Source of the DNA: Pseudidiomarina sp.
GTDB lineage: Bacteria > Pseudomonadota > Gammaproteobacteria > Enterobacterales > Alteromonadaceae
Assembly: GCA_023260975.1 (NCBI GenBank)
Contig: JALQTK010000010.1
Span: 1-53,769 of the forward strand
Length of the DNA: 53,769 nt
Direction of reading: 5' to 3'
Position numbers and translations under genes: made by a program. The notes beneath the pieces were generated by a model. That model did not search any database, was not told where the DNA came from, and saw nothing but the letters and a program-made list of their open reading frames with translations. The first letter of the stretch is position 1, and each line of letters begins with the position of its first letter. This document shows positions 2,766 to 41,030 of the stretch, one piece after another.

Positions 2766-3818
2766 TTAGCGAACTGCTGGCATCATCAGTGTTACGGTTG
2801 CCGCGTCGGCATCGAGCTCGACCGGAAGCCCCATTGGTAAAATATGATTTTTGCGAATATGACCAAATTGCGCACCGGTGTAGGTCGGTACGCCCAACGG
2901 TTTGAAATAATGCTCAAATACTTCATGCAAGGTAAAGCTGCCGAAGCCTTCACCCGGGTCGCAGTCGGTACAATGACCAAATACTACTCCAGCGACACCA
3001 TCTAAATGCCCAGCCAATTGCAGTTGTGATAAGAAGCGGTCGATGCGATAGATATCCTCGCCAACATCTTCAAGCGCCAAAATTTTTCCGCGTAAATCTG
3101 GGAAAAATGGCGTGCCGACTAAGCTTGCGAATACGGTGAGATTGCCACCCATCAATATGCCGCGGGCTTTTCCCGAGGTAATGGTCGTGGTGCGATTGGT
3201 CATCATGGTGAGGGTTTTTTCTTGCTCTTTATAGTTCCGCATGGTGGTCATTTTACCATCCATCAGCACATCACGTACTTGCTGCGCTTGAAATTCCTCC
3301 CAATGCGAATAACCATTCGGCCCATGAAAGGACACTAGGCCAGTTTTTATATAGAGCGCATTAATCAATGCAGTGATATCGCTATAACCCATAAATACCT
3401 TGTGGTTGCGGCGAATCATGTCGAAGTCAAGCAGGTTAAGAATGCGATTACAGCCCCAGCCGCCGCGAACCGCTACGACAGCGTCAACACCTGGATCAGC
3501 AAAGGCATTATTAACATCATCAGCGCGCTGTTGGTCGGTGCCCGACAAATAACCAAAACGGCCGAATACATGCTGACCAAGTTGGACCTTGAAACCCATG
3601 GCTTCAAACGATTCTTTGGCAATAAAGACGTATTGGCGGTCAGGTAGCGCACTGGCTGGCGCTACTAAACGAATGGTATCACCGGGCTTTAGCGCTTTTG
3701 CCAATAATACCGGTTGCTCTGGCGCTGACATCTGAAATGGCGAAGCGAGCAGCTGTGTTGGTAATGCGCTTACCACAGCGCCGGCGGTCAATGCCTTGAT
3801 AAATCCGCGTCGATTCAT
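2766..3818 (-). CDS. Exported LD-carboxypeptidase, peptidase family S66 (LdcA-like)
   Basis: A 350-residue S66-family protein; the family removes the terminal D-Ala from murein tetrapeptides. The N-terminus NRRGFIK followed by a hydrophobic stretch and LLASPF looks like a twin-arginine signal, so it probably acts in the periplasm, unlike cytoplasmic E. coli LdcA. The nucleophile-elbow region reads RGGWGCNR, with Cys123 where a Ser is expected. The expected Glu (LALED, E250) and His (QFGH, H320) are present. An AGGAGA site precedes the ATG. It is transcribed away from the M14 peptidase gene, sharing a 107-base control region, and is the first gene of the peptidoglycan locus. Activity with Cys at this position is an open question. 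Confidence 0.85.
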   Translation of the reverse strand: MNRRGFIKALTAGAVVSALPTQLLASPFQMSAPEQPVLLAKALKPGDTIRLVAPASALPDRQYVFIAKESFEAMGFKVQLGQHVFGRFGYLSGTDQQRADDVNNAFADPGVDAVVAVRGGWGCNRILNLLDFDMIRRNHKVFMGYSDITALINALYIKTGLVSFHGPNGYSHWEEFQAQQVRDVLMDGKMTTMRNYKEQEKTLTMMTNRTTTITSGKARGILMGGNLTVFASLVGTPFFPDLRGKILALEDVGEDIYRIDRFLSQLQLAGHLDGVAGVVFGHCTDCDPGEGFGSFTLHEVFEHYFKPLGVPTYTGAQFGHIRKNHILPMGLPVELDADAATVTLMMPAVR

Positions 3819-3925
3819 GGCGGTTCAGTCTCCTGTTGTTGACTTTCAAGTACTACAACCTTTAGTCTGCATCGTAGATGGTAATTCAATTAAATTAAAG
3901 TGCTCTGCTCAGTCGGGACGCATTT
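3819..3925. promoter_or_regulatory. Divergent control region of the S66 and M14 peptidase genes, with a candidate operator
   Basis: The 107 bases separate two outward-facing genes. At 3864-3880 the sequence AGTCTGCATCGTAGATG matches 11 of 17 positions of the perfect palindrome found before the TonB receptor at 16055-16071, keeping TCTGCA on the left and AGAT on the right. The M14 gene has only a weak ribosome site. No confident -35/-10 pair was identified. Confidence 0.35.
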
Positions 3926-5338
3926 ATGCTAAAGCGTTTGCTCACCTATACAATTATGCCCACTCTAGCGCTCATTGCTAGTATTGCGCAGGCTCAACCT
4001 ATGCTTGAAAAATCGTTCAGTGCCGGCCCAGCCGACCAATTTGTGGTGCCCCAATTAGCAAAGCGCCAGCTGCGCCTTGCCGATATTCAGGGGTTGTTAG
4101 ATAGCTTAGCGACCAGTAAGTGGGTCAAACGGCAAGTGATTGGCCAGTCCTTTGAGGGGCTCCCAGTATATCGTTTGAGCGTTGGTAGTGGCGATACGGT
4201 GGTGTTGATGTGGTCGCAGATGCATGGCGATGAATCAACTGCCACCGCTGCGCTATTCGATTTATTGTTGCGAGTAGAGCAAGATGATGCCTGGCGATCC
4301 GCTTGGATCGATCAGCTCACGGTACATATTATTCCGATGGTTAACCCCGATGGGGCCGAGCGCGCACAGCGAGAAAATGCGCAGGGCATCGACGTTAACC
4401 GCGATGCGCAAGCGCTACAAAGCCCAGAAGCACGGCTGCTGCGGCAACAAGCCGAACTATTAAAACCTGATTTTGCCTTCAATTTGCATGACCAGAATGA
4501 TTATTATGCGGTCGGCAGATCCGCGTATCCGGCGACTATTTCGGTGCTCGCGCCAGCGTTCGATGTGACTAAATCGGTAAATGCCAGTCGGCAACGGGCT
4601 ATGCAAGTGATTGCTCAGTTGATGACGATCATGGATACCTATCTGCCTGAGCATACCGGCCGTTATAACGATAGCTATGAATGGCGAGCTTTTGGTGATT
4701 TATTCTCAGCCTTTGGTATCAGTACAATTTTGCTCGAGTCAGGAGCTTATTTTAATGATCCCGAGCGCCAGGTGGCACGAGCTTTGAACCGCGCTTTGCT
4801 TGGTCAAGCGTTGCTGGATCTTGCCAGTCGCGCCTATGAAAACGCTGATGTGGAGCGTTATTGGCAGATTCCGTTGAATCGCAACAATGGTTTTCACGAC
4901 TTACTTGTTGATGGCGTTACAGTATCGGATAACAGCCAATCTTATCAGCTCGATATTGCTATTCGACGCTCGAAAGACCGTCATCGCGGTATGATTGAAA
5001 GTGTTGGTGACCAATCTACCGTTAACGCTTTTCAGCGCTTCAATGCAGCTGGTTTCGATTATCGTATGGGCCGGGCTTATGCGATTCCAGCAACAGGGTT
5101 ATCGTTGCAACATGCTGATTATCAGCAGTTGCTGCAGCAAGGCTACAGCCATTTTATCGGCGCTGCTGAGCAGCTGCAGATAAACACCAGTTGGCCGGTT
5201 GTGATCAACCCCAAATACCCTCCGGGCGCGCGGCCGCAAGCTGACCAGAATGCCAGTTTTTTGCTGGCAAAGGGCTCAGCCATTACCCATGCGGTGTTAC
5301 AAGGGCAGTTATTTACGCTGACTGAGGCCAGTCGGTGA
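3926..5338 (+). CDS. Periplasmic zinc carboxypeptidase, M14 family
   Basis: A 470-residue protein with a signal peptide ending near AQAQ (residue 24). The zinc-binding HxxE is H100-G-D-E103 (MHGDES), the third ligand is H188 in FNLHDQ, NPDG and DVNRD supply substrate contacts, and the catalytic Glu is E271 in LLESGAYF. The family cleaves C-terminal residues from peptides, and some members act on murein peptides such as gamma-D-Glu-mDAP. It heads a five-gene plus-strand run of peptidases and amino-acid racemases, so a role in trimming stem peptides is inferred. The precise bond cut is unknown. About 170 residues beyond the catalytic Glu have no recognised motif. Confidence 0.85.
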   Translation: MLKRLLTYTIMPTLALIASIAQAQPMLEKSFSAGPADQFVVPQLAKRQLRLADIQGLLDSLATSKWVKRQVIGQSFEGLPVYRLSVGSGDTVVLMWSQMHGDESTATAALFDLLLRVEQDDAWRSAWIDQLTVHIIPMVNPDGAERAQRENAQGIDVNRDAQALQSPEARLLRQQAELLKPDFAFNLHDQNDYYAVGRSAYPATISVLAPAFDVTKSVNASRQRAMQVIAQLMTIMDTYLPEHTGRYNDSYEWRAFGDLFSAFGISTILLESGAYFNDPERQVARALNRALLGQALLDLASRAYENADVERYWQIPLNRNNGFHDLLVDGVTVSDNSQSYQLDIAIRRSKDRHRGMIESVGDQSTVNAFQRFNAAGFDYRMGRAYAIPATGLSLQHADYQQLLQQGYSHFIGAAEQLQINTSWPVVINPKYPPGARPQADQNASFLLAKGSAITHAVLQGQLFTLTEASR

Positions 5339-5359
5339 ACATTATTTTCGTGGAGTAGT

Positions 5360-6946
5360 ATGACTATGAATAAACGCACTCTTACCCACTTACTGACTGC
5401 CTTGAGCCTGCTGTTATGCAGCGCACAAAGCCATGCCAGCAGCCCCGACCCTGAGCAGTTAGCGCAACGTATTGACCAAACTGTCGCTGAGGTGATGGCA
5501 AGCTATGCGGTGCCGGGCGTTGCTATTGCGGTCGTCGAGGGGCAACAGGTGGTGTTTGCCAACACCTATGGGGTGCAAGAGTATGGAAAAGCCGCTCCGG
5601 TCACAGCCGATTCGTTGTTTAAAATTGCTTCGGTCAGTAAAAACTTCACCACGGCTGCCCTGGCATTGTTAATCGATGAGGGCAAATTGAGCTGGGATGA
5701 TAGGGTGATTGACCATCTACCGGAGTTTCGTACGTCAGATCCGTGGATTACTGCAGAATTCCGGGTGCGTGACTTATTAATTCACAGCAGTGGACTTAAC
5801 TTAGGTGCAGGCGATTTAATGTTCTGGCCTACCCCCAATGATTTTACTCGCACTGATATTCTTAAAGGGCTGAAATACTTGCCCATGGACCGCGGCTTTC
5901 GCTCACGTTATGCCTACGACAATATTCTCTATGTGTTAGCCGGCGAGTTGACCGAACGGGTCGCTGGTATGGCGTGGGAAGATTTTGTTGAGCAACGCTT
6001 GTTGCAGCCGCTGGGTATGCAGGCATGTTTTGCGGGTATCGTGCCAGAGCAGCAACGCGCGCTGTTAGCCCAGCCGCATGGCGATATTGATGGGGTGCCG
6101 ACCGTGGTTCGCCGCGATTTTGCCGATCAGCGTATTCCTTCGGTGGCAGCTGGGGGCATGCGTTGCAGCCAAAGCGCCATGATTGAATGGATGAAGATGC
6201 AGTTGGCGCGGGGCCGTTATAGCGATGCTGATGGCAACCAGCAGACGCTTATCAGTAGCAAAAACCATGCAGAAATGTGGAAGCCACAAACGCTGACCGG
6301 GGTTGGTTCGCAAATGCAACAATGGAATAACACCTTATTTGGTGCGTACGGCTATGGCTGGCGCATTAATGATGTCGATGGTCAATTACTGATTCATCAT
6401 ACCGGTACTTTACATGGTATGAATGCCTACCTCGGTTTTTTACCGCAACGTAATGTCGGCTTTTTAGTGCTGATGAATAAATCCAATGGTGATGCTCGTA
6501 CCACACTCATTCAGACCCTGATCAAGAGTTACACCAGCACTGAGCACCACGATTGGCTAGCGATGACTAAAGCGTGGCGCGCACAGCAGACTATTCGCCG
6601 TGCGGCACGCTTTATCGAGCCGACCACACAAGCGGTTGACCCTGCCTCAATTCCACCACTGCTGGGTGTTTATCGTGACCCGTGGTTTGGTGATATTAGC
6701 ATTGAACAGCAGCAGCAAAGCCTGCGCTTGCGCTCGCATCGCTCAAGCCGCATTGCCGGGGAGTTATTTCATGTGAGTGGCACCACCTATGTGGTGCGTT
6801 GGGATGACCGCACGCATGAGGCCGATGCCTATGTGCGCTTTACCACCACCATGAGTGGCGCCATTGATGGGATGTTAATCGAAAAAATCGACCCAGCGGC
6901 GGATTTTAGCTTCAACTTTGAAGATTTGCGGTTACGGAAACTGTAA
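5360..6946 (+). CDS. Periplasmic class C beta-lactamase-family serine hydrolase
   Basis: A 528-residue protein with a Sec signal ending about residue 26 (SHAS). The serine hydrolase triad motifs are SVSK (S91-K94), YDN (Y186-N188) and HTG (H347-G349). A C-terminal domain of about 130 residues resembles the DUF3471-type beta barrel found on D-aminopeptidases and esterases of this clan. Family members act as DD-peptidases, D-aminopeptidases or esterases. Because it lies between an M14 peptidase and alanine racemase, D-amino-acid release from murein peptides is a reasonable inference. Two ATGs (5360, 5366) can use the GGAG at 5352-5355. Its stop is directly followed by the alr ATG. Confidence 0.85.
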   Translation: MTMNKRTLTHLLTALSLLLCSAQSHASSPDPEQLAQRIDQTVAEVMASYAVPGVAIAVVEGQQVVFANTYGVQEYGKAAPVTADSLFKIASVSKNFTTAALALLIDEGKLSWDDRVIDHLPEFRTSDPWITAEFRVRDLLIHSSGLNLGAGDLMFWPTPNDFTRTDILKGLKYLPMDRGFRSRYAYDNILYVLAGELTERVAGMAWEDFVEQRLLQPLGMQACFAGIVPEQQRALLAQPHGDIDGVPTVVRRDFADQRIPSVAAGGMRCSQSAMIEWMKMQLARGRYSDADGNQQTLISSKNHAEMWKPQTLTGVGSQMQQWNNTLFGAYGYGWRINDVDGQLLIHHTGTLHGMNAYLGFLPQRNVGFLVLMNKSNGDARTTLIQTLIKSYTSTEHHDWLAMTKAWRAQQTIRRAARFIEPTTQAVDPASIPPLLGVYRDPWFGDISIEQQQQSLRLRSHRSSRIAGELFHVSGTTYVVRWDDRTHEADAYVRFTTTMSGAIDGMLIEKIDPAADFSFNFEDLRLRKL

Positions 6947-8050
6947 ATGAGCAACCATGTGCGTCATTATCGCCCTACCCGCGCGGAAATTAGCCTCTCC
7001 GCACTGCGTCATAATGCAAAGCTGGCGCGTGAATTAGCCGCTGGGCAGTCATTATTAGCGGTCATCAAAGCCAATGCCTATGGTCATGGCAGTAGCGCGG
7101 TTGCAGCCGCTCTTGAGCCTTACGTTGATGCGTTTGCGGTGGCCTTTATAGATGAAGCGTTGCAGCTGCGCGAAAGTGGCTGCCAGTTACCTATTGTGTT
7201 GTTAGAGGGTTGTTTTAGCGCTGCTGAGCTAACTTTGTGCGAGGCCTACAATTTACAGCCGGTCATTCATCATCATCGCCAGCTAGAGCAAGTACTCACC
7301 AGCAACATAGAAACGCCGTTGCGGGTATGGTTGAAAGTGGACTCAGGGATGCATCGGCTGGGTTTTGCCAGTAACGACATCGCCGCAGTAAGCGAGCGTT
7401 TGAGGGCGGCAAGTCAGGTGGCTGACGTGGTCTTGATGAGTCATTTTGCCAATGCCGAACAAGCAGAGCACCCACTCAATAGTCGTCAACTGGCCGAATT
7501 TGAGCCATTAGTAGGTTTAGCAAGCCAGCTCAGTTTGGCCAATAGCGCGGCTTTATTGCAACCCTTTGACAGTTTACTGCAAGCTGATGAGCGCCGCTGG
7601 TGTCGCGCTGGCATCATGCTTTATGGCATTGATCCAGGGCTGCCATACGCTACTGCTGCATTGCAGCCGGCGATGCGATTGGTAGCACCGGTGATTGGAC
7701 TGCGTTCGGTAAAAGCGGGTGATACTGTTGGTTACGGATCGCGCTGGCAGGCCAGCCGTGATAGTGTAATCGCCACGCTAGCGATTGGCTATGCTGATGG
7801 TTATCCGCGCCATGCATCAACCGGCACAGCAGTTTTAGCCCGCGGTCAACGACTGCCGTTAGTCGGCACGGTATCGATGGATATGATCACCATTGACGCC
7901 ACGGATTGTCCGCAGTTGTGCCTTGAGGATGAGGTTGAGTTGTGGGGGCCGGCGTTGCCGGTCAATGAGGTGGCGCAGCAAATCGGTACTATTGGCTATG
8001 AATTAGTCACGCGCGTGGGCCAGCGGGTGCCGCGCATTTACGTTGATTAG
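6947..8050 (+). CDS. alr: Alanine racemase
   Basis: A 367-residue PLP enzyme that interconverts L- and D-alanine. The PLP lysine is K41 in AVIKANAYGHG, the second catalytic base is Y263 in VGYGSRW, and the VDSGMHRLG and SMDM motifs are intact. It has no signal peptide, so it works in the cytoplasm. The ATG follows the previous stop with no gap. In this setting it more likely converts D-Ala released from murein peptides to L-Ala for catabolism than serves wall synthesis, but a housekeeping role cannot be excluded without the rest of the genome. Confidence 0.95.
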   Translation: MSNHVRHYRPTRAEISLSALRHNAKLARELAAGQSLLAVIKANAYGHGSSAVAAALEPYVDAFAVAFIDEALQLRESGCQLPIVLLEGCFSAAELTLCEAYNLQPVIHHHRQLEQVLTSNIETPLRVWLKVDSGMHRLGFASNDIAAVSERLRAASQVADVVLMSHFANAEQAEHPLNSRQLAEFEPLVGLASQLSLANSAALLQPFDSLLQADERRWCRAGIMLYGIDPGLPYATAALQPAMRLVAPVIGLRSVKAGDTVGYGSRWQASRDSVIATLAIGYADGYPRHASTGTAVLARGQRLPLVGTVSMDMITIDATDCPQLCLEDEVELWGPALPVNEVAQQIGTIGYELVTRVGQRVPRIYVD

Positions 8051-8082
8051 CAAATCGGTCATGAGATAAAGGGCAATTCGAT

Positions 8083-9471
8083 ATGCGTCGTGTTTTGGGT
8101 TTGTTGTTATTGTTTTTGCTAGGTTGCCAGCCAGCGCCGGTCATAGTCAGCGTTGAGCCGGCGCCGCAGCATGATGTGTTGGGTGTTACGGAAGCTCAGT
8201 TGCAGCTTGATTACTGGTTGGCGCAACGCCCTGATGCTGACGCGTTGATCAAAGATGCCGCGGCTATTGTCGCTTTCAATCAGCAAACTTATGCACTGCA
8301 GCCAGAAATGGTTGAATTATCAAGTTTACCGCAGAGCTGGTCAGCCGAGCAGCTGCAACAAGCTATCAACAGTATTAGCCGCCTACCGAAGTATCCGCGA
8401 TTTTATGCAAATGGCCAGCAAGCCAGCGAGGCGCAGTTGGCTGGTTATCGCACTGCGGCTAATTTAGCTGGGGTGCAGCAGAATAATCCAATTCGCTTTG
8501 GCTTGGCGTTGCAGCGCGCGGCTATGCGCACTTTCCCAACCAACGATAAGCTGTATAGCGCCGTTGATGATTTAGATATTGACCGTTTTCAAGAAACTGC
8601 AGTATTCCCTGGTTGGCCATTAGCGATTGTCCATACCAGCGTTGACGGGCAGTGGTATTTAGCGCAGTCATACCATTATCTGGCCTGGATAGAAGCACGT
8701 TATGTGGTGCTGGGTGAGCGCCAGACGGTTTTAGCCTATGCGCAACGTCAACCGTTTTTGCAGGTTACCGCTGCTAAGGCGTGGACCAACTATAATCCGC
8801 TGCAGCCAGCGAGTTCCGAGCTACAACTCGATATGAGTACACGCTTACCTTTATTAACTGCGGCAGAAGTAGGAACCGCAGTGCATGGACAAAATCCGTA
8901 TGCCAGCCATGCGGTACTGCTGCCGCAGCGTGATGCTGAAGGGCAATTAGCCTTTACCCCGGCCTTGATAGCACGTCATCACGCCACCACAACCGGCTAT
9001 TTACCTTTTACCGAAGCGAATATTCTGCGCCAAGCGTTTAATTTCTTGGGTGAGCGTTACGGCTGGGGGCACGATTATAATGCCCGCGATTGCACTGGTT
9101 TCGTCTCGGAAGTTTACCGTACAATGGGTATTGAAATGCCCCGCAATAGTGGCCAGCAGGGGTATGGTGAATTCGGTCGGACGATTCGTTTCGACGCTGA
9201 TACACCGCTGGCAGAAAAGCTTCCGCATCTAGCTAACCTCCAGGTGGGTGACCTACTCTACCTACCGGGTCATGTGGTGATGTATATCGGCCATGTTGGC
9301 GATGAGCCTTTTGTTATTCATGATGTGCATGGGCTGCGCTATCGCGATGCCGATGATAATCCGTATAAGGGTATTCTCAACGGCGTATCGGTAACACCAT
9401 TGACTACCTTGTATGTGAATGAGAAAGAGAGCTATCTAGACCGTATTTATGCGATTAAATCGCTTCGTTAA
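8083..9471 (+). CDS. NlpC/P60 lipoprotein peptidase with SH3-like domains (murein endopeptidase)
   Basis: A 462-residue protein with a lipobox LLGC (Cys15). The catalytic NlpC/P60 domain is at the C-terminus: Cys337 in RDCTGFV, His397 in PGHVVMY, and a third polar residue H413 in IHDVHG. Residues about 140-270 look like the bacterial SH3b1/SH3b2 domains that accompany this class, and residues 40-130 resemble the N_NLPC_P60 stabilising domain. Such enzymes cut gamma-D-Glu-mDAP in free stem peptides. It is the expected source of L-Ala-D-Glu for the epimerase encoded 11 bases downstream, and its lipid anchor places it in the periplasm. Confidence 0.88.
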   Translation: MRRVLGLLLLFLLGCQPAPVIVSVEPAPQHDVLGVTEAQLQLDYWLAQRPDADALIKDAAAIVAFNQQTYALQPEMVELSSLPQSWSAEQLQQAINSISRLPKYPRFYANGQQASEAQLAGYRTAANLAGVQQNNPIRFGLALQRAAMRTFPTNDKLYSAVDDLDIDRFQETAVFPGWPLAIVHTSVDGQWYLAQSYHYLAWIEARYVVLGERQTVLAYAQRQPFLQVTAAKAWTNYNPLQPASSELQLDMSTRLPLLTAAEVGTAVHGQNPYASHAVLLPQRDAEGQLAFTPALIARHHATTTGYLPFTEANILRQAFNFLGERYGWGHDYNARDCTGFVSEVYRTMGIEMPRNSGQQGYGEFGRTIRFDADTPLAEKLPHLANLQVGDLLYLPGHVVMYIGHVGDEPFVIHDVHGLRYRDADDNPYKGILNGVSVTPLTTLYVNEKESYLDRIYAIKSLR

Positions 9472-9482
9472 CGCAGGTTGCT

Positions 9483-10580: not shown

Positions 10581-10591
10581 CTCAACGGCTG
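10569..10591. terminator. Hairpin at the convergent ends of the epimerase and amidase-fusion genes
   Basis: CAGCCGTT (10569-10576) and AACGGCTG (10584-10591) form a perfect 8-bp stem with a 7-base loop holding both stop codons. No T tract follows on either strand, so bidirectional termination is only possible. Confidence 0.35.
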
Positions 10592-13056: not shown

Positions 13057-13100
13057 TAGCTTGTTCCGTTATTGGTTTGCGTAGGCATAGTGCGAAAACA

Positions 13101-13128
13101 AATGCGGCCAGCCGAGGCTGACCGCATT
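13101..13128 (-). terminator. Intrinsic terminator after the TonB-dependent receptor gene
   Basis: AATGCGGCCAGCC (13101-13113) faces GGCTGACCGCATT (13116-13128), a 13-bp stem with a single G-U pair. Reading the minus strand, the stem is followed by TTTGTTTTCGC. It ends receptor transcription before the amidase fusion, possibly with read-through. Confidence 0.7.
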
Positions 13129-13148
13129 GAATACCTAACCAATGTTGC

Positions 13149-15998: not shown

Positions 15999-16290
15999 GG
16001 GCTGTTCTCCACTTGATTGTCTGTTGATTTAAGTTAGTTATTATTAGGTGATGCTATCTGCAGTGCAGATAACCCAAGTCAGTCTTGCGCAAGGGCTCTC
16101 CCATAGCATACCCATTGGGAATTTTTTTACTCTGCTGTTAGGTATAAGCTAAAAAATAAATTATTCAAGCTTTTTAACTCTATCCACTCTAGACCGACGT
16201 GTCAAAAAAATCCACTATAGGGCATCGAGTACTGTCATGAGCACTAGCCTACCGGGTTAAATAAACAATTCTTAATAAGTTGAGCAGACG
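15999..16290. promoter_or_regulatory. Intergenic control region between TonB receptor and GH3 gene
   Basis: This 292-base gap separates two outward-facing genes. It holds the palindrome at 16055-16071 and an AT-rich stretch (about 16120-16210) of promoter character. I found no small ORF or RNA gene in it and no -35/-10 pair strong enough to name. Confidence 0.4.
16055..16071. promoter_or_regulatory. Perfect 17-bp palindrome, candidate operator
   Basis: TATCTGCA and TGCAGATA are exact reverse complements around one central G. The position in the upstream region of the TonB receptor fits an operator. The half-site TATCTGCAG recurs at 26879-26887 just before the sugar-kinase gene, and a degenerate copy sits at 3864-3880. 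The cognate regulator is unknown. Confidence 0.5.
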
Positions 16291-20868: not shown

Positions 20869-20901
20869 AGCAATTGCTCAGTTAAGTTCATGGCAAATCG
20901 A

Positions 20902-20918: not shown

Positions 20919-20946
20919 CAAAAAAACTGTTTGAGGATAGAGCATT

Positions 20947-21795: not shown

Positions 21796-21808
21796 GCGCC
21801 TTTGTAGG

Positions 21809-23918: not shown

Positions 23919-25486
23919 ACCGACATTTCAGGGTTAGGGTCAGCTTTACCAAGCCAACAGATAAACGTTGAGACACTGGTTCCGATAACAAGTTGCCACG
24001 TAAAACCAATATCAGTTACCCATGCAGCAGGCCATAATAAATCCATCATATAGGGTTGTAAGCTTAATGGTATGAGAAAGCCAATAATAAGTGCTGCAGT
24101 GATTGAGCGGCGGTTACCGCGTTGGCTAAACAAAGTAACAAAGTACACGCCGAGTAAGCCGCTGTAGGAGAACACCATCACTCCCAGTGCAAATGCAAGC
24201 AACGGGGTATCGCTATATTGTTGCCAATAATAGCAAAGCATTGCCATAGCGCCGAGCACTAGCGCTACGATCGCCATGGCCCACTGCCCCGCGCGCACAA
24301 AATGAAGTGCTGGTGTTTTAGCTTGGCGCGCTAGGCGCCATGGTTGATAGAGATCTTGAATTAATACGCTGGCCATTGAGTTGAGCCCAGAATTCAGTGT
24401 TGAGAGCGCTGCCGCAATAATACCGATGGTGACTAAACCGCGCACCCCGGCTGGAATTTCGGTCAACACGTAATACATAAAAATGGTCACTGGTTCACCA
24501 TCAAATACTGGAATCGGTGCACCATTGGCGGCGCTCGCCATCACATCAGGGCGTTGATAAAACACGTATAATAGTAAGCCAATACAGATAAATAGCAGCA
24601 TAACGGGTATCACCATAACCACTGATAACAGCATAGCGCGACCGCCTTGCTCGGGGGTTTTACAGGTGAGTGCGCGCTGAGTGACATCTTGGTCTAAGCC
24701 AAATGCAGCGATGTGTAGCAATACAAAGCCAGTTAAAATGGAGGGTAAGGAGAACACCCCAGCACTGGTAAAATCCCAGTCGGTATTCCACAGTCGCAGC
24801 TTTGATGGCGTTTGCTCGGTAGACTGCTGCAATATCGACACCAGCTCACTGAAATTCAGTGGTATCGCCTGTACGAGGATAATAAGCACAGCGACTGCGG
24901 CGCTGACATAAACCATGGCCTGAATGAAGTCTGAATAAATAATGCTACGGATACCGCCGACCACGGTATACAGCAAGCCCACCACCACAATGAGCGCAAT
25001 CGCAATGGCGACACTGGCAGGCGCTATATTACCGAAGACGATCATGGCAACTGCAATTGCTGCCATATAAAGTCGGGCACCACTGGCAAAAACACGACCA
25101 AATAAATACAAAATACCTGCTTGTTGTTTGGCGCCGCTGCCGAAACGTTGTTGTAGCAATTCATAAACAGTGAATACTCGCTGTTCATAGAAGCGCGGTA
25201 GTAGCCACTTAGCAACGAAAAAAACCGCAATAAATGCGGCTAAGTTGCTGGCCAAATAGGTTAAGTCGCCGCGATAGCCTTGATCAGGACCGCCAAGAAA
25301 GGTTGCCGCGGATTGTGAGGTGGCTAGCACCGATATGGCAACCGCCCAAGTTGGCATGGTATTGCCGGCAAGAAAGTAATCTTGACTGGTGGCATTACGA
25401 CGGTTGAGTAACCAGCCACTGCCGAGCAGCAGCGCAACATAGCCAACAAATACCCAGAGGTCGGGCCAACTATAATGATTGAGCAT
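23915..25486 (-). CDS. Sodium:solute symporter, probable MurNAc transporter
   Basis: A 523-residue SSS-family permease with about 13 hydrophobic segments. Family-typical stretches include TMPTWAVAISVLATSQSAATFLGGPDQGYRGDL near residues 43-75 and SDFIQAMVYV near 180. In Tannerella and relatives, MurNAc enters by a dedicated inner-membrane transporter rather than a PTS; here this gene is translationally coupled to murQ, so uptake of unphosphorylated MurNAc (or an amino sugar) is inferred. The 17-base overlap with the upstream hydrolase gene indicates one mRNA. Sialic acid or other sugar specificity cannot be ruled out by reading. Confidence 0.85.
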   Translation of the reverse strand: MLNHYSWPDLWVFVGYVALLLGSGWLLNRRNATSQDYFLAGNTMPTWAVAISVLATSQSAATFLGGPDQGYRGDLTYLASNLAAFIAVFFVAKWLLPRFYEQRVFTVYELLQQRFGSGAKQQAGILYLFGRVFASGARLYMAAIAVAMIVFGNIAPASVAIAIALIVVVGLLYTVVGGIRSIIYSDFIQAMVYVSAAVAVLIILVQAIPLNFSELVSILQQSTEQTPSKLRLWNTDWDFTSAGVFSLPSILTGFVLLHIAAFGLDQDVTQRALTCKTPEQGGRAMLLSVVMVIPVMLLFICIGLLLYVFYQRPDVMASAANGAPIPVFDGEPVTIFMYYVLTEIPAGVRGLVTIGIIAAALSTLNSGLNSMASVLIQDLYQPWRLARQAKTPALHFVRAGQWAMAIVALVLGAMAMLCYYWQQYSDTPLLAFALGVMVFSYSGLLGVYFVTLFSQRGNRRSITAALIIGFLIPLSLQPYMMDLLWPAAWVTDIGFTWQLVIGTSVSTFICWLGKADPNPEMSV

Positions 25487-26801
25487 GGGTCGCGTTAACC
25501 TTATCAGCGTTGACTTTCAGTGGCGGCTGGCGCAGCAGCTGCAAGGTGGCTTGGCGAATCAGCTGCTCGACTTTTAAGCCGGCCTCACCAACGCCGGTAT
25601 AATCTTGTTGGTCGCTACTGGCTTGCACTGCCATGGTGAATTCGCGGCTACCATCGGGAAGTGGTAGACACACATGCATCAGCGCTACAACCTCACCGCT
25701 ATTGCGTGTTTCACTGGGGCCTGCGCCCAATTTATGCAGAATCCGCCAATTGCCGTTACTGGCTTGGTCTAAGGTAGCCTGTACCGATAACCCACGTAGC
25801 ACTGGATAATGCTCTTGCAAGGCTGCTGCGATAGCACGGTGCGGGGTCAAACTCGCCCCTGCCATCATACCGCCAGCAGCAATCTCATGGAGGCTGTGAC
25901 CAACACCGAAAAACAATAGATCGATAGCCGGCTGCGACAGACCATCAAGACGCGTAAGGGGATCGCGCTGGTAGCTTGCCAAACGTTTTAGGAATTCGGC
26001 CAGCACCAAGGTGGTCATTGGTTTATTGCCGGTTAAGCCGCACTCATCGCAGCGATAGCCGAGCATCCCGGGGTCGCTGCTTGGCGGGTTAAGCAGTAGC
26101 TGCTGATTGCGACTTGCAGTGAGCCAACGCGGCGGCTCAGGGGCGTAGGCGGCTGGTCCATAAGCGCCGCGAAATTTAACCTGTGGCTGGCCACTATTGA
26201 GCCACGCATGATGTAACAGTGCGGTAAGGTAGTCGCGCCCAGCAAGGTTAGCAAAGTAGTAGGCATAGGCATTGGAATCGCCATTGGCACCACCAATAGC
26301 CTGATAACTATGAATACTAGTAATGATATCGGCGACGCGTAGCTGGCCAACTAAGGTATCAGGCTGGGCAAAATCTGCGCTCAGTTTGCTCATGGCACCA
26401 ATAAAGGCCATTATTTTAGAACTACTCCACGGCTCGAATAGTTCGGTATGGGTTGCTTCGTTAGCCAAATAGCGATAGCTCAGCTGTTGGTTTTTATAGG
26501 CAAAATCAATCGCCAACACCTTCCCTTCGGTCGCACTACTAGGGAAGTAATACCAATCATGAGCGCTTTTTTCGAGCCACCCCAGCTCAGTTCCCATTGC
26601 TGCCGATGTTTGATAATTGGGGTCATCTGCAGCCACGGTTGTTGCGCAATCAAAGCCCCCAGGCTGATAATTCTGCGGCAGCAAAGGTAATGCGCTGATA
26701 ACCTGTTGATAATAATCTTCAGCAGGAATCGTTTCGATCGATGGCGAATGATAGTTACCTTGCCCAAGTGCCAAGACACTGAACAACAGCTGCTTTATCA
26801 T
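25470..26801 (-). CDS. Class A beta-lactamase-like serine hydrolase, function unknown
   Basis: A 443-residue protein, first gene of the hydrolase-symporter-murQ-namZ operon. It carries SSSK near residue 128 (EPWSSSKIMAF), an SN-containing segment (GDSNAYAYYFA) where class A enzymes have SDN, and KLG near residue 363 (LHKLGAGPSETRNSGEV) in place of KTG. The residues after it resemble the class A end. There is an unusual cysteine pair, RCDECG, in the middle. The N-terminus is a short hydrophobic stretch, so export is likely but unsure. It may be a murein peptidase or esterase; resistance activity is not implied. GAGGG at 26811-26815 is the ribosome site. Confidence 0.65.
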   Translation of the reverse strand: MIKQLLFSVLALGQGNYHSPSIETIPAEDYYQQVISALPLLPQNYQPGGFDCATTVAADDPNYQTSAAMGTELGWLEKSAHDWYYFPSSATEGKVLAIDFAYKNQQLSYRYLANEATHTELFEPWSSSKIMAFIGAMSKLSADFAQPDTLVGQLRVADIITSIHSYQAIGGANGDSNAYAYYFANLAGRDYLTALLHHAWLNSGQPQVKFRGAYGPAAYAPEPPRWLTASRNQQLLLNPPSSDPGMLGYRCDECGLTGNKPMTTLVLAEFLKRLASYQRDPLTRLDGLSQPAIDLLFFGVGHSLHEIAAGGMMAGASLTPHRAIAAALQEHYPVLRGLSVQATLDQASNGNWRILHKLGAGPSETRNSGEVVALMHVCLPLPDGSREFTMAVQASSDQQDYTGVGEAGLKVEQLIRQATLQLLRQPPLKVNADKVNATHAQSL

Positions 26802-26901
26802 AAATTAATCCCTCAAATATAATTCTTTGAGAATAAAGTATTACAAGCCATTGTGCAAAATGTGGCACTATCATAGGGTATCTGCAGCAAGCGAAGGTTC
26901 C
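26802..26901. promoter_or_regulatory. Divergent control region for the murQ operon and the kinase-nag operon
   Basis: This 100-base gap must hold promoters for both operons. It contains a palindrome ATTCT-TTG-AGAAT (26822-26834), the GTAATACTTTAT motif on the minus strand (26830-26846) shared with the RpiR upstream region, and the half-site TATCTGCAG (26879-26887) shared with the TonB-receptor palindrome. No strong consensus promoter is visible, which fits regulated transcription. Confidence 0.45.
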
Positions 26902-27795
26902 ATGACAATGAGCACAATTCAGTACTATGCAGGTGTTGATGGCGGTGGCACAAAATGCAGTGTCCATTTATATGACCAAAAAGGCGCACTGCTCGCCAGC
27001 GCTGTGGGTGGGCCGGCCAATATTGCGCAGCAGCCACTGCAAGCGCAAAACTCCATTTTAGACGCCTGTGCCGCAGCCTTTGAGCAAGCTGGTATAAGTA
27101 GTGATGCATTCGCGACAACCTCGTTATGTGCTGGGTTGGCCGGCGCCAATGTTGCTGCAGCAAAAGCCGCTTGGCAGCAGTGGTCACACCCGTTTGCGCA
27201 GCTGCAGGTAATTTCTGATTTACATGCTGCAGTTTATGGCGCCCATAGCGGCCAGCCTGGCGCTGTGATGATTATTGGTACCGGCTCTTGCGCTGCTGGC
27301 TGGTCCGGACAACAGCTGCAGCAATGGGGCGGGCATGGTTTTTTACTCGGTGATAAAGGCAGCGGAGCTTGGCTTGGCTTGCGTGCAGTGCAGCATACTC
27401 TTGAGATGATCGACGACGTGCAAGCACCGAGCGAATTAGCCCAGCGGGTATTGCAGCAACTGCAGTTAGCCAGCAGCCATGATGTAGTGACCGCTTTACA
27501 TCAAGCTGCGGCGGCTCGTTTTGCTAGTTTAGCCCCATTAGTGATTGAATTAGCTGACGCTGAAGAGCCGGTGGCGCTGGCCTTAGTGAGCCGTGCCGCA
27601 GGGTATTTGGAGGCGATTGGTAATCAAGCGCTAGCGTATACCGGTGGCCGTTTAGTTTTAGTTGGCGGCTTAGCAGAGCGGCTGAGTCATTATTTGAGCC
27701 CAAGTTTGCAAAAACACTTAGGAGCAGCTCAACATGGTCCTGAATGGGGCGCCATTGCTTGGTTTCATCGAGGTGTTTTATGCCCAGCCGACTAG
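26902..27795 (+). CDS. BadF/BcrA-family amino-sugar kinase (GlcNAc/MurNAc kinase, MurK- or NagK-like)
   Basis: A 297-residue ASKHA-fold ATPase. The phosphate-binding motif GVDGGGTK is at residues 11-18 and a second phosphate loop IGTGSCAAGW is mid-protein. GlcNAc kinases and the Clostridium MurK, which phosphorylates both GlcNAc and MurNAc, belong to this family. As the locus has a symporter and MurQ but no PTS, this kinase is the candidate for making MurNAc-6-phosphate. Two ATGs (26902, 26908) follow GAAGG at 26893-26897; either could be used. The gene overlaps the next by 16 bases. Confidence 0.85.
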   Translation: MTMSTIQYYAGVDGGGTKCSVHLYDQKGALLASAVGGPANIAQQPLQAQNSILDACAAAFEQAGISSDAFATTSLCAGLAGANVAAAKAAWQQWSHPFAQLQVISDLHAAVYGAHSGQPGAVMIIGTGSCAAGWSGQQLQQWGGHGFLLGDKGSGAWLGLRAVQHTLEMIDDVQAPSELAQRVLQQLQLASSHDVVTALHQAAAARFASLAPLVIELADAEEPVALALVSRAAGYLEAIGNQALAYTGGRLVLVGGLAERLSHYLSPSLQKHLGAAQHGPEWGAIAWFHRGVLCPAD

Positions 27796-28772
27796 CACTT
27801 GAAATCGCCGAAACTGCGCAGGTTATCCGCCAGCAAATTAGTGCAAACGAGGTGGTTGTTAGACAATTAGCAGCGCAATTGCAGGCACAACCACCGCACC
27901 TGATTATGATGATCGGCCGCGGCACATCGGACCATGCTGGGGTGTTTGCTAAGTATTTATTTGAAGTGGCGTGTGGTGTTCCAGTCGCTGCTGCAGCGCC
28001 GTCGGTGGCGAGTTTATATCAGCGCCAATTGCGCTTGACCGGTGCTTTGGTGATTGTGATTTCGCAATCCGGTCGTAGCCCAGATATTGTTGAGCAAGCG
28101 GCACAAGCAAAGCGCGGCGGCGCTATGGTAGTGGCTATTGTAAACGCCACCGATAGTCCGCTGTGTCAGCACGCCGACTGGGTGGTTGCCATGCACGCTG
28201 GCGCCGAGCACGCGGTGGCGGCCAGCAAAAGTTACTTAGCTAGTTTAAGCGCATTACTGCATATTGCTGCACAATGGCAACACGATGTCGCATTATTGAC
28301 TGCGTTAGGGCAATTTCCGCAGCAGCTTGAAGCGCTTGCACAGCAACCCTTGTTGATGCAACCAAGTGCCTTGCAGGGCCTGCAGCATTGTATTGTGTTA
28401 GGCCGCGGTTTTGGTTACGCGATTGCGCGTGAGGTGGCACTGAAATTAAAAGAAGTGTTGGGTTTGCATGCCGAGGCTTTCAGTAGTGCAGAATTTTTAC
28501 ACGGCCCAGTGACTTTGACTCGGCACCCGTTAACTATTATTGAAATCGCCATCAATGATGAAAGTAGCAGCGCCCATCAACAGCATCTAAGCGCTATTGC
28601 GGCGGGTGCTGGGCACACCATTCATTGGCTTGCTGACGCTACCCTGCATCCGCGACTGCAGCCGCTGGCGCTGATGTGGCGTTTTTATCAGGCCTTGGAA
28701 CATACTGCTCGTAGCCGCGGTCTCGACCCCGACGCCCCACCGGGTTTAAACAAAATAACGGAGACTTACTAG
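27780..28772 (+). CDS. Glucosamine-6-phosphate deaminase, SIS type (NagB-II)
   Basis: A 330-residue double-SIS protein. Motifs are GRGTSDHAG, SQSGRSPD, GAEHAVAASKSYLASL, LGRGFGYAIAREVALKLKE and SSAEFLHGP. This is the NagB-II form described in Shewanella, which converts GlcN-6-phosphate to fructose-6-phosphate and ammonia, distinct from the E. coli NagB fold. It lacks the glutaminase domain of GlmS. The ATG at 27780 lies inside the kinase reading frame and has GAGG at 27770-27773. It is followed by nagA with a one-base overlap. Confidence 0.88.
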   Translation: MPSRLALEIAETAQVIRQQISANEVVVRQLAAQLQAQPPHLIMMIGRGTSDHAGVFAKYLFEVACGVPVAAAAPSVASLYQRQLRLTGALVIVISQSGRSPDIVEQAAQAKRGGAMVVAIVNATDSPLCQHADWVVAMHAGAEHAVAASKSYLASLSALLHIAAQWQHDVALLTALGQFPQQLEALAQQPLLMQPSALQGLQHCIVLGRGFGYAIAREVALKLKEVLGLHAEAFSSAEFLHGPVTLTRHPLTIIEIAINDESSSAHQQHLSAIAAGAGHTIHWLADATLHPRLQPLALMWRFYQALEHTARSRGLDPDAPPGLNKITETY

Positions 28773-29902
28773 TGTTTGTGTGTGAACGCGTACTGACTCG
28801 TGATGGTTGGCTATACCAGCAACAAATAACCTTGCAAGGTAATCACATTCTGAGCATTGATGCGGCGCCAAGCTCACATCACCTGCCCTGCTATAAAGGC
28901 AGTTTAGTGCCGGGTTTTATTGATGTGCAAGTGAATGGCGGTGGCGGTGTGCTATTCAACCATGATTGCAGTGTTGGCGCTCTTGAACAGATGATGAAGG
29001 CGCATCTTCAGTATGGTAGCACCGCCATGTTACCAACTCTCATCACCGATGATTTTGCCGCCATGGCCAGGGCTGCCGAGGCGGTGATTGCGGCACGGCG
29101 CCAAGGTATTGCCGGCATTATTGGTGTGCATTTTGAGGGGCCGTGGCTCTATGCTGGGCGCAAAGGCGTGCATCGCGCTGACTATATGCGTGCGCCAACT
29201 GCCGCTGAGCTGGCTTTATTAAAGAATCCAGAACTTGGTGTGGTCATGGTCACGTTAGCCCCGGAAATGGTTACTACTGAGATCATCAGCCAATTAGCTG
29301 ATGCGGGTATACGGGTCATGCTTGGCCATACCGATGCGAGCGCAGAGTTGGCCAACCAAGCATTTGCTGCTGGCGCGGTCGGCTGCACGCATTTATTCAA
29401 TGCGATGTCGCAGTTGCAGGGGCGCTCGCCTGGGGTTGTTGGCGCCTGTTTAGCCAATGATAGTTACGCCGGGATCATTATTGATGGTCACCACGTGGCA
29501 CCAGAAGCATGTCGGCTTGCCTACAAAGCCAAGGGTGTTGAGCGCTTGATGTTGGTGACTGATGCCATGGCATTCGCGGCGACTGATGCCGACCAGTGTG
29601 ATTTATTCGGCGTCACTATTCGCCGCGAAGACGATCGCTTAACCACCGCCGATGGCACCTTAGCCGGATCATGTTTAACCATGATTGCTGCGCTACAAAA
29701 CGCTATACGTCTATGCGGCATGCCTTTGGCTGATGCCGCCTGTATGGCAAGTACGACACCAGCTACGTTATTGGGCATAGAACAGCGCCAAGGCCATCTT
29801 GCTGCGGGTATGCTGGCTGATATGGTGTTGCTGAACGATGCGCTGCAAGTACAACAGGTATGGCAGCATGGACAACCGCTGTACACGGAGATAAAACAAT
29901 GA
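28772..29902 (+). CDS. nagA: N-acetylglucosamine-6-phosphate deacetylase
   Basis: A 376-residue amidohydrolase that removes acetate from GlcNAc-6-phosphate, the product of MurQ and of the kinase. Motifs are PGFIDVQVNGGGG, HFEGPWL (metal Glu), LGHTDAS and GCTHLFNAMSQ (metal His residues), DGHHV and LVTDAMAF (catalytic Asp). It starts with GTG overlapping the TAG stop of nagB-II (TAGTG), with GGAG at 28760-28763. It feeds GlcN-6-phosphate to NagB-II. Confidence 0.95.
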   Translation: MFVCERVLTRDGWLYQQQITLQGNHILSIDAAPSSHHLPCYKGSLVPGFIDVQVNGGGGVLFNHDCSVGALEQMMKAHLQYGSTAMLPTLITDDFAAMARAAEAVIAARRQGIAGIIGVHFEGPWLYAGRKGVHRADYMRAPTAAELALLKNPELGVVMVTLAPEMVTTEIISQLADAGIRVMLGHTDASAELANQAFAAGAVGCTHLFNAMSQLQGRSPGVVGACLANDSYAGIIIDGHHVAPEACRLAYKAKGVERLMLVTDAMAFAATDADQCDLFGVTIRREDDRLTTADGTLAGSCLTMIAALQNAIRLCGMPLADAACMASTTPATLLGIEQRQGHLAAGMLADMVLLNDALQVQQVWQHGQPLYTEIKQ

Positions 29903-31170
29903 AAACTTGGCTGCCAATGGTTACCCTCGGGGTATTATTCTTTATCTTCGGCTTTGTTACCTGGCTTAACGGTGCGCTGATTCCTTTTCTACAAATCATT
30001 TCTGATTTGAGCGAATTTCAAGCGCTGCTGATTGCCTTTAGTTTCTACATTGCTTACGTAGTGATGGCGCTGCCGATGTCCTGGTTATTAGATAAAAGCG
30101 GCTATCAAAAAGGCATGGTCATTGGCTTGGCATTGATTGCGATGGGCCTATTATTATTTGTACCTGCCGCGCAAACACAATGGTTTGGAATATTTTTGAC
30201 GGCGCAGTTTGTGGTCGGCTCTGGCCTGACGATTTTACAAACCGCGTCGAATCCCTACATTACTCGACTTGGCCCGGAACAGTCAGCAGCCGCGCGAATT
30301 GCGGTGATGGGCATACTCAACAAATGTGCTGGGGTACTCGCGCCGTTATTTTTTACTTGGTTAGTACTGGCTGATTTACCGCAGATTTCGCAGAGTATGT
30401 TGGCCAGTTTACCTGCACTAGAGCGCGCTCAGCAGGTCGAGCAGATGGCTAACCAGCTGATTGCACCTTATATCGGTATGGCATTGTTCTTGCTGTTGGT
30501 TGCAGCAGTGTTTGCAGCCATTAAATTGCCCCCCATCGAAGAGCAAGCACCAGCACATGATGCCCAGAGTATTTGGCAGTTCCCGCAGCTTGTTTTAGGC
30601 GCAATAGCACTGTTTTTTTACGTTGGCGTCGAGGTTATTGCCGGCGATACCATTGGCATGTACGGCGCGCAGCTAGGCTTGTCGCATTACAGCGTGCTGA
30701 CTTCGTATGTCATGGTCGCCATGGTGCTCGGTTATCTGCTCGGGTTGTTGCTGATCCCGCGCTGGCTAAGCCAAGTGGCTGCATTGCGTTGGTCGGCCGC
30801 GCTCGGTTTATTATTGACCACACTGCTGCTAGTGAGCTCTGCCACGGATCACTGGATTGCCGAATTAGCCTGGGGCTGGTCAGGTATTCCAACCACGCCG
30901 AATAGCGTGACATTTTTGGCTCTGTTAGGGTTTGCTAACGCCATGGTATGGCCGACTATCTGGCCATTAGCCTTGGCAGGGCTGGGGTCGTTCACCGCTC
31001 GCGGTTCAGCAATTCTGATTATGGGCATAGCGGGCGGCGCGCTATTACCGCTGTTGTACGGTTGGCTTGCGCAGCAGTCGAGTATGCAAAACGCGTATGC
31101 GCTGTTGTTGATTGGCTATGCGGTGATTGGTAGTTATGCATGGCGTGGCTATCGGTTGCGGCATTGGTGA
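29899..31170 (+). CDS. nagP: MFS sugar permease (FucP/NagP-like)
   Basis: A 423-residue membrane protein with 12 predicted helices of the fucose-glucose-H+ symporter group. Visible features are FVTWLNGALIPFLQI in helix 1 and QTASNPYITRLGP after helix 4. NagP of Shewanella-type N-acetylglucosamine loci belongs here, so GlcNAc uptake is the inferred role. ATG at 29899 overlaps the nagA stop (ATGA), preceded by GGAG. With the SSS symporter the locus has two inner-membrane sugar carriers, fitting separate GlcNAc and MurNAc entry. Confidence 0.85.
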   Translation: MKTWLPMVTLGVLFFIFGFVTWLNGALIPFLQIISDLSEFQALLIAFSFYIAYVVMALPMSWLLDKSGYQKGMVIGLALIAMGLLLFVPAAQTQWFGIFLTAQFVVGSGLTILQTASNPYITRLGPEQSAAARIAVMGILNKCAGVLAPLFFTWLVLADLPQISQSMLASLPALERAQQVEQMANQLIAPYIGMALFLLLVAAVFAAIKLPPIEEQAPAHDAQSIWQFPQLVLGAIALFFYVGVEVIAGDTIGMYGAQLGLSHYSVLTSYVMVAMVLGYLLGLLLIPRWLSQVAALRWSAALGLLLTTLLLVSSATDHWIAELAWGWSGIPTTPNSVTFLALLGFANAMVWPTIWPLALAGLGSFTARGSAILIMGIAGGALLPLLYGWLAQQSSMQNAYALLLIGYAVIGSYAWRGYRLRHW

Positions 31171-41029: not shown

Positions 41030-41030
41030 A

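Follow-up and report, generated by a model that had tools for sequence, protein, structure and literature searches.

A conserved locus that very likely serves peptidoglycan-fragment utilization in Pseudidiomarina

The window, by which we mean the whole 53,769-nucleotide stretch of DNA analyzed here, is contig JALQTK010000010.1 (C11 in our numbering) of a Pseudidiomarina sp. metagenome-assembled genome (MAG) of 1.90 Mb that is 86.6% complete (GCA_023260975.1). At 2766-31170 it carries a block of adjacent genes that is very likely a real, conserved locus for the utilization of peptidoglycan fragments, and we judge it quite probable that this accessory locus lets the cell feed on external fragments without a phosphotransferase system (PTS). 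An earlier note, made from the letters alone, had proposed a complete non-PTS peptidoglycan utilization locus here, and its coordinates were correct: 19 intact, uninterrupted open reading frames (ORFs) of 282-949 aa lie within them. The sugar half (10582-31170) is a conserved catabolic module that comprises an SSS-family symporter, the N-acetylmuramic acid (MurNAc)-6-phosphate etherase MurQ, the exo-muramidase NamZ, the regulator MurR, a two-domain NagZ, a D-lactate dehydrogenase (D-LDH)-like enzyme, the nagPAB-kinase genes, a TonB-dependent receptor (TBDR), and an amidase-PBP4B fusion. The peptide half (2766-10580) plausibly serves the same diet.

Gene content and linkage in relatives

Forty window proteins were scanned against Pfam, and 18 of the 19 locus ORFs gave matches above cut-off in the expected families; the exception is 25470-26801, with one match below it. 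Together with NCBIfam, these matches confirm the enzyme and transport families previously listed from motifs and the RpiR-type regulator placed inside the locus, which is an HTH_6 + SIS protein. Curated NCBIfam cut-offs were exceeded by MurQ, alanine racemase, NagA, NagB-II, and the PBP4B domain, and named equivalog cut-offs were missed by NagP and MurR (bit scores in Table 1) and by the kinase (270 vs 370 bits). What had been called an amidase fusion resolves into Amidase_2, PG_binding_1, and PBP4B, an arrangement preserved in Pseudidiomarina and Pseudoalteromonas. Two proteins had been overlooked: an AmpH-like beta-lactamase-fold protein with DUF3471, and the product of 25470-26801, a probable serine hydrolase of the penicillin-binding protein (PBP)/beta-lactamase fold by its predicted structure. 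The best PDB match of the GH3 protein is the two-domain Bacillus NagZ (3bmx, ybbD), and entries of single-domain length (340-352 aa) score at most 169 bits (1tr9: 99). The locus is flanked on the left by pntAB, and the right-hand genes scanned have no evident link to it.

By NamZ, the closest named relatives are Idiomarina sp. UBA6142 (87%) and Pseudidiomarina mangrovi (82%). A NamZ search of genome contigs confirmed 92 loci, of which 80 were kept, 29 of them gammaproteobacterial by title (L002-L029 and L038), and MurQ adjoins NamZ in all 29. In the remaining 51 (Bacteroidota or unplaced) the window queries matched NamZ alone at E 1e-10, save for a 21% SSS match in two; these loci are too diverged for the window queries, and the result is no evidence against MurQ there. 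Eight Pseudidiomarina loci (L003-L010) share the gene order nagP-nagA-nagB-kinase // hydrolase-SSS-MurQ-NamZ // MurR / D-LDH // GH3 / TBDR, with NagB absent from one (L008). In Pseudoalteromonas, NlpC-epimerase-(lipoprotein)-SSS precede MurQ-NamZ in 13 of 13 loci, and a kinase was recognized in 12, the serine hydrolase in 10, MurR in 12, and the amidase-PBP4B fusion in 12 (L017 ends early). The lipoprotein between epimerase and SSS in Pseudoalteromonas, also seen at L095:5424-6185, has weak similarity to YkuD (L,D-transpeptidase), and a relative at L098:1573-3699 additionally carries a transglutaminase-like domain.

A gene-neighborhood check of the kind that the earlier note proposed was run on 20-kb stretches from 20 genomes of 19 other genera, all preselected for NamZ and MurQ. 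MurQ in 20 of 20 is thus by selection, and the less biased figure is the 61 of 66 given below; five NamZ-bearing genera other than Pseudidiomarina were omitted, and loci L090 and L014 are apparently one organism, so this set overlaps that of the NamZ search. GH3 was present in 19 stretches (one match, in L088, is cut by the stretch end), SSS in 15, MurR in 13, D-LDH in 8, a separate kinase in 8 (one, in L100, not adjoining MurQ), and amidase-PBP4B in 7. Lower counts were obtained for NlpC (6), racemase (6), epimerase (4), serine hydrolase (4), TBDR types (4), AmpH-like (3), and M14 (1). Twenty control stretches of 20 kb, 19 from the test genomes and one (L106) from a different genome, gave zero matches to every query save one partial AmpH-like ORF. 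These nearly empty controls rule out a chance gathering of genes, and co-occurrence in relatives was far from rare for the sugar half. Some neighborhoods hold other genes: a membrane protein that we name NagX-like follows GH3 in L084, L089, L091, L092, and L100 (no Pfam match for L089, the one scanned), and L084, L089, L090, and L102 carry what we take to be a LamB/YcsF-type 5-oxoprolinase-like gene.

Across 147 genomes of the family, NamZ was found in 66 and MurQ above cut-off in 70, with both in 62, NamZ alone in 4, MurQ alone in 8, and neither in 73 (Fisher p 2.8e-27, a value that ignores relatedness). The two genes lie at most 5 kb apart in 61 of the 62 genomes with both (61 of the 66 with NamZ); in G042 they are on separate contigs. 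Within the genus (26 genomes), MurQ above cut-off and a BadF kinase occur in the same 12, one kinase per genome, and a TBDR ortholog (at least 58% identity) occurs in these 12 and in 0 of the 14 others. Matches of 30-31% to the TBDR in two MurQ-free genomes were not counted as orthologs, and G163 has its TBDR in two separate matches, on a contig other than that of MurQ. AmpG is present in 26 of 26 genus genomes, in our own on another contig than the locus, and AnmK in 146 of 147 family genomes; these distributions show that the recycling genes are separate from the locus and general. Because MurQ, the kinase, and the TBDR share 12 of 26 genomes while AmpG and AnmK are so widespread, the locus looks like an accessory, all-or-none package on top of a general recycling pathway. 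The PTS EIIC domain (PF02378) was found in 0 of the 26 genus genomes, which rules out an overlooked PTS permease. For the sugar half, the non-PTS utilization claimed by the earlier note is therefore well supported: the genes are linked and co-occur, they share a predicted operator, and EIIC was not found. It is less supported for the peptide half.

Predicted regulation and proposed pathway

The palindrome GGAATAA-N-TTATTCC fits conserved blocks in aligned divergent promoters of eight Pseudidiomarina (the window and L003-L009), in 8 of 8 for TBDR/GH3, 8 of 8 for hydrolase/kinase, and 6 of 8 for MurR/D-LDH. In other genera, a match was taken as at least 11 of 14 positions within 250 nt upstream, and the promoters counted have 60 or more non-coding bases. 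Matches lie upstream of SSS in 10 of 12 cases, MurR in 6 of 12, GH3 in 5 of 16, the amidase fusion in 3 of 6, and D-LDH in 2 of 4, compared to 0 of 4 and 0 of 7 for the operon-internal NamZ and MurQ and 5 of 141 control promoters. The A+T fraction is 0.61 in controls, 0.62 for SSS, and 0.67 for MurR. The SSS enrichment has a Fisher p of 1.3e-10 versus controls, and the 16 of 24 observed for SSS and MurR together was reached by 0 of 104 permuted palindromes (best 7). In these genera there was no significant excess upstream of NlpC, epimerase, racemase, or hydrolase (p 0.13, 0.21, 0.28, and 0.26). As a binder of the palindrome, the RpiR/MurR protein inside the locus is the obvious candidate, and the motif predicts a MurR regulon as a shared on-off switch for the block. 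Two operator-like sites that fall in coding sequence, 16301 at the start of GH3 and 4321 within M14, were discarded as chance.

Our model is built on gene content, linkage, co-occurrence, motif enrichment, and the predicted hydrolase fold, and from these we infer substrates, enzyme locations, transport direction, dual specificity of the kinase, and binding of MurR to the motif. Fragments would pass the outer membrane via the TBDR. In the periplasm, the amidase-PBP4B lipoprotein and the SxxK hydrolase would cut stem peptides and cross-links, the two-domain NagZ and NamZ would clip the glycan to N-acetylglucosamine (GlcNAc) and MurNAc, and NlpC/P60, S66, and M14 would trim the peptides. At the inner membrane, the SSS symporter would take MurNAc and NagP would take GlcNAc, after which a single BadF kinase would phosphorylate both sugars. 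MurQ would convert MurNAc-6-P to GlcNAc-6-P and D-lactate, NagA and NagB-II would yield fructose-6-P, and the FAD/Fe-S dehydrogenase-like enzyme, with D-lactate as its presumed substrate, would oxidize the lactate. The epimerase would convert L-Ala-D-Glu and the racemase D-Ala. MurR would repress the block via the palindrome until MurNAc-6-P is present.

The periplasmic steps call for exported enzymes. Inspected by eye, the N-termini are Tat-like for S66, lipoprotein-like for GH3, the amidase fusion, and NlpC/P60, and of Sec type for M14, the AmpH-like protein, and NamZ; the serine hydrolase has a short hydrophobic stretch and nothing more, and racemase and epimerase have no signal. Among relatives, a crude scan picked up hydrophobic N-terminal stretches in NamZ (47/49), GH3 (30/33), the amidase fusion (20/20), serine hydrolase (22/24), NlpC/P60 (20/20), and AmpH-like (3/3) proteins. 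The same scan gave 0/7 for racemase and 1/18 for epimerase, and the M14 relatives (0/8) contrast with the M14 of the window. A lipobox pattern is present in 19/20 relatives of the amidase fusion, 29/49 of NamZ, 21/33 of GH3, 15/24 of the serine hydrolase, and 3/20 of NlpC/P60.

The serine hydrolase adds an unnamed SxxK family to the locus. S126xxK129, S176-N177, and K357xG359 are invariant in an alignment of 20 homologs, where the middle motif, S176-N177, is not a clear SxN. Its AlphaFold2 model has a pLDDT of 86.9 and a pTM of 0.88, and the 50 Foldseek matches listed are beta-lactamases and PBPs at 10-16% identity (best E 3.3e-7), with target-normalized TM scores of just 0.25-0.62 among them. 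Two of these are titled as DARPin constructs, which we take to be beta-lactamase fusions. A PDB sequence search with this protein returned one unrelated match (E 0.34). Among the 147 family genomes, 23 carry the hydrolase, all with NamZ and MurQ (hypergeometric p 1.3e-10, ignoring relatedness), and 12 of these have it over 50 kb from NamZ or on a separate contig. This protein is probably a murein amidase or peptidase, which gives the unannotated family a predicted function, and the family can be used as a marker.

The BadF kinase is the sole BadF match in its own genome, where a second one was sought and none found; given that the MAG is 86.6% complete, the genus-wide result of one per MurQ-bearing genome (12 genomes) is weightier. 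It sits in the nag operon wherever Pseudidiomarina loci were examined. Its PDB matches are GlcNAc kinase 1zc6 (111 bits), MurNAc/GlcNAc kinase 8zo3 (61), and Tannerella MurK 8oqw (38); the search query began at 26893, in frame and not at a start codon, and the true start is probably an internal ATG near 26902. In the neighborhoods of other genera, a kinase adjoins MurQ in 7 of 20, lies elsewhere in the stretch in 1, is fused to MurQ in 4, and was not recognized in 8. The fusions (L089, L096, L098, and L101) have an N-terminal BadF-like kinase and MurQ in one chain of 615-642 aa, as judged by Pfam for L089 alone and from N-terminal sequence for the other three. For import, the nearest PDB entry to the SSS symporter, 5nv9, is a bacterial sialic acid transporter. 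In the sister MAG locus (L002:2330-3675) the SSS gene is broken into two ORFs, which could be an assembly artifact. NagF, a MurT-like permease of Stenotrophomonas, is reported to carry GlcNAc (PMC13055268), a caution that SSS-type relatives of MurT may do likewise.

Rival readings and points of doubt

It is unlikely that the locus mainly recycles wall shed by the cell itself. Bacillus is reported to employ a similar set for its own turnover (PMC5061867), MurQ can act on the AnmK product too, and this genome has both AnmK and AmpG. Yet MurQ is found in 12 of 26 genus genomes despite the near-universal AmpG and AnmK, and the TBDR, an outer-membrane importer that recycling would not need, tracks MurQ exactly in the genus. 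A reading in which the real substrate is chitin or oxidized chitin and MurQ and NamZ are incidental strikes us as very improbable. The nagPAB-kinase genes are a GlcNAc pathway, and the ong cluster for oxidized chitin shares the TBDR, SSS, and RpiR layout (PMC9537276), but NamZ, MurQ, the amidase, PBP4B, NlpC/P60, and the dipeptide epimerase are not known to take part in chitin use. No GH18 chitinase or GH20 match was found among the 40 window proteins scanned, and the symporter OngIT is reported to be dispensable on MurNAc in published mutants (PMC9537276).

It is appreciably possible, if not the outcome we favor, that two neighbors share the block: a MurR-regulated amino-sugar block and a separate murein-peptide operon. 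The peptide-half promoter (3819-3925) has no operator match of at least 11, and S66-M14-AmpH-Alr-NlpC-epimerase is collinear in only one of 10 Pseudidiomarina relatives, P. mangrovi (L123); Idiomarina sp. UBA6142 is nearer by NamZ, and its contig is too short to show the order. In the nine other species (L124-L132), amidase, TBDR, and GH3 remain together, in five the epimerase follows the amidase at a distance of about 7-9 kb, and NlpC was found in three and the racemase in one of the stretches examined; in four of the nine, no epimerase, NlpC, or racemase was seen in that stretch. One of these species has, at L126:12380-13903, a flavin-dependent gene between TBDR and amidase fusion that is not in the window and that we take, from its N-terminus, to be Trp-halogenase-like. 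On the other side, NlpC and epimerase stand just before SSS-MurQ-NamZ in 13 of 13 Pseudoalteromonas loci, with one lipoprotein gene between, and occur in 6 and 4 of 20 neighborhoods in other genera versus 0 of 20 controls. Both blocks would act on the same polymer in either case. No peptide importer was found among the 40 window proteins scanned. The earlier word "complete" is therefore unproven, given the six-gene order found in P. mangrovi only, the promoter without an operator match, and the lack of an importer among those proteins.

The scattered peptide half is one of several observations that weigh against external feeding through a single MurR-controlled package. The association statistics ignore relatedness, as said above. 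Outside the genus, TBDR-type genes occur in only 4 of 20 neighborhoods, three of them of a type without a Pfam barrel match in the one scanned. Regarding the operator, the threshold of 11 was picked after the window scan had been seen, and the divergent SSS/GH3 and MurR/D-LDH genes often share a promoter, so that the motif counts overlap and are not independent. The window sites reach 11/14 at best, and, taken by itself, the window shows four where about two are expected, which is close to chance; in the MurR/D-LDH promoter, the site present in the other six species aligned is missing from the window and from P. mangrovi. As for the kinase, 4 of 15 SSS-bearing neighborhoods have no recognized one, separate or fused, and 10 of 10 Pseudidiomarina kinases have GGH at a site that reads GGW or SGW in the other 30 sequences of the alignment. 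By our own count this His falls at the position of MurK L135, and Glu or His in that region is described as a feature of homologs other than MurNAc kinases (PMC10465942). Dual specificity is thus doubtful; that one kinase serves both GlcNAc and MurNAc would still be the likeliest arrangement, and a MurNAc kinase from another family is possible.

We continue to favor feeding on external peptidoglycan fragments. The fuller statement comes at nearly an even chance: that Alteromonadales hold a MurR-controlled locus with uptake by TBDR, full periplasmic breakdown as Bacillus does extracellularly, MurNAc import by a sodium symporter, an unnamed SxxK family as its murein amidase or peptidase, and a single kinase for both sugars in Pseudidiomarina.

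Table 1. Coordinates of the locus genes and predicted operators in the window
Feature	Position	Strand	Evidence
S66 LD-carboxypeptidase, Tat-like N-terminus	2766..3818	-	Pfam S66 + S66C E 1e-38 / 1.2e-36; RR motif by eye
M14 zinc carboxypeptidase-like, Sec-type signal by eye	3926..5338	+	Pfam M14 6e-14, partial model coverage
AmpH-like beta-lactamase-fold protein + DUF3471	5360..6946	+	Pfam 1e-64 and 4e-16
Alanine racemase	6947..8050	+	TIGR00492 329 bits vs cut-off 168
SH3_6 + NlpC/P60 gamma-D-Glu-diamino acid endopeptidase-like (YkfC-like), lipoprotein-like N-terminus	8083..9471	+	Pfam; PDB 3m1u 1e-20, 3h41 1.5e-5
L-Ala-D/L-Glu dipeptide epimerase (YkfB-like)	9483..10580	+	PDB 1jpm 338 bits; Pfam
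Lipoprotein-like fusion Amidase_2 - PG_binding_1 - PBP4B	10582..13056	-	NF002968 454 bits vs cut-off 385; PDB AmpDh3 203 bits (amidase part)
TonB-dependent receptor	13149..15998	-	Pfam barrel + plug
Predicted operator, TBDR/GH3 divergent promoter	16153..16167		11/14 positions; block conserved in 8 aligned species
GH3 beta-N-acetylglucosaminidase, two-domain, lipoprotein-like, Bacillus YbbD/NagZ-like	16291..18159	+	PDB 3bmx 285 bits/579 residues
FAD/Fe-S D-2-hydroxyacid (D-lactate) dehydrogenase-like	18133..20868	-	FAD-oxidase_C 5e-54 + Fer4 + CCG
RpiR/MurR-family regulator	20947..21795	+	HTH_6 + SIS; NF012026 MurR 199 bits, under cut-off 408
NamZ exo-beta-N-acetylmuramidase, N-terminus suggests export	21809..22972	-	PF07075 3e-75, PF20732 5e-29; PDB 4jja 360 bits
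MurQ MurNAc-6-phosphate etherase	22965..23918	-	TIGR00274 405 bits vs cut-off 302
SSS-family symporter, predicted MurNAc permease	23915..25486	-	PF00474 1e-30; nearest PDB 5nv9 putative sodium:solute symporter
Probable SxxK serine hydrolase, predicted PBP/beta-lactamase fold, unannotated	25470..26801	-	Conserved motifs; AF2 model; Foldseek
Predicted operator, serine hydrolase/kinase divergent promoter	26830..26844		11/14 positions
BadF-type kinase, putative GlcNAc/MurNAc	26827..27795	+	PF01869 5e-27; PDB 1zc6, 8zo3
NagB-II glucosamine-6-phosphate deaminase	27744..28772	+	NF046059 448 bits vs cut-off 430
NagA deacetylase	28772..29902	+	TIGR00221 305 bits vs cut-off 226
NagP-like GlcNAc MFS permease	29860..31170	+	NF046060 473 bits, under cut-off 625

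Between TBDR and amidase fusion, an imperfect inverted repeat at 13102-13127 is possibly a terminator or attenuator. Outside the locus, a second TonB receptor at 38975-43124 stands next to genes for a LysR regulator and a GSDH-type sugar dehydrogenase, all on one strand. At 48156-52683, a gene for a DnaE-type polymerase (1066 aa) comes after an IMS-family Y-polymerase-like gene, a pair that resembles an imuB-dnaE2 mutagenesis cassette.

Comparison with known systems

Pseudoalteromonas prydzensis carries a homologous locus (L025 and L027), and its strain DSM 14232 (L025) is presumably the same type strain as ACAM 620. We also take ybbC of Tannerella to be NamZ and AmiE of Bacillus to be a beta-lactamase-fold hydrolase. 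Studies bearing on the diet itself include transport mutants of P. prydzensis ACAM 620 that equal the wild type on MurNAc, from which growth itself is inferred (PMC9537276), and Pseudoalteromonas CF6-2, for which peptidoglycan as sole carbon and nitrogen source is reported to support growth (PMC6962226). Peptidoglycan has been proposed as an important deep-sea microbial food (PMC11044484), and in mat bacteria MurNAc use has been predicted from MurQ plus the GlcNAc pathway (PMC5507952). Caulobacter is reported to recycle without MurQ (PMC13046382). Among the literature matches listed, no title names such a locus in Alteromonadales, and in the available text of work on peptidoglycan-feeding marine bacteria we found no locus named for MurNAc use. 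The gene set is now defined, and together with the predicted operator and the marker family it is open to tests in Pseudidiomarina and Pseudoalteromonas cultures and to searches of metagenomes. Most parts are known elsewhere; what is new is the unnamed hydrolase family, the predicted MurR regulon, and perhaps one kinase for both amino sugars.

The earlier statement that these parts are not described as a system went too far. In Tannerella forsythia, Tanf_08345-08385 (ybbC, ampG, murT, murK, murQ) is a published PTS-free Gram-negative combination of NamZ, AmpG, sodium symporter, BadF kinase, and MurQ, reported there as one transcript (PMC5388701, PMC5790795, PMC7670621). An SSS-family permease adjoins MurQ here too, a likeness at the level of the PF00474 family. 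The Tannerella operon has AmpG inside and is reported to be under GppX two-component control, whereas our locus has MurR inside and AmpG elsewhere and adds the TBDR, two-domain NagZ, amidase-PBP4B fusion, D-LDH-like enzyme, nagPAB, epimerase, and NlpC/P60. Much of that remainder is found in Bacillus subtilis murQ-murR-murP-amiE-nagZ-ybbC(namZ), with MurQ, an RpiR regulator, extracellular NagZ, and NamZ, and in E. coli murR / murQ-murP-yfeW(PBP4B), with MurQ under divergent MurR plus a PBP4B gene (PMC5061867). Relative to the Bacillus set, SSS and a kinase stand in place of the PTS permease MurP, an outer-membrane receptor is extra, and AmiE is apparently replaced by other PBP-fold proteins; E. 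coli also imports by PTS. Here PBP4B is fused to an AmpD-type amidase, and NamZ and others are added.

Other systems share fewer elements. The ong cluster of P. prydzensis, from the same bacterial order, is alike in TBDR, SSS, and MurR/RpiR, and it differs in its substrate and in reported deacetylation and deamination without phosphorylation (PMC9537276). Compared to a Bacteroidota-type polysaccharide utilization locus, the TBDR is present, but no SusD family was found among the 40 window proteins scanned. The peptide half recalls Bacillus ykfABC, with S66, NlpC/P60 with SH3b, and dipeptide epimerase together in the window; no Dpp-type transporter was found among the proteins scanned, and the NlpC/P60 looks exported, as proposed for B. 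cereus and not B. subtilis (PMC2954226). Judged by its sequences, then, the locus resembles Bacillus murQRP-amiE-nagZ-ybbC plus ykfABC, with a sodium symporter and a kinase in place of the PTS permease.

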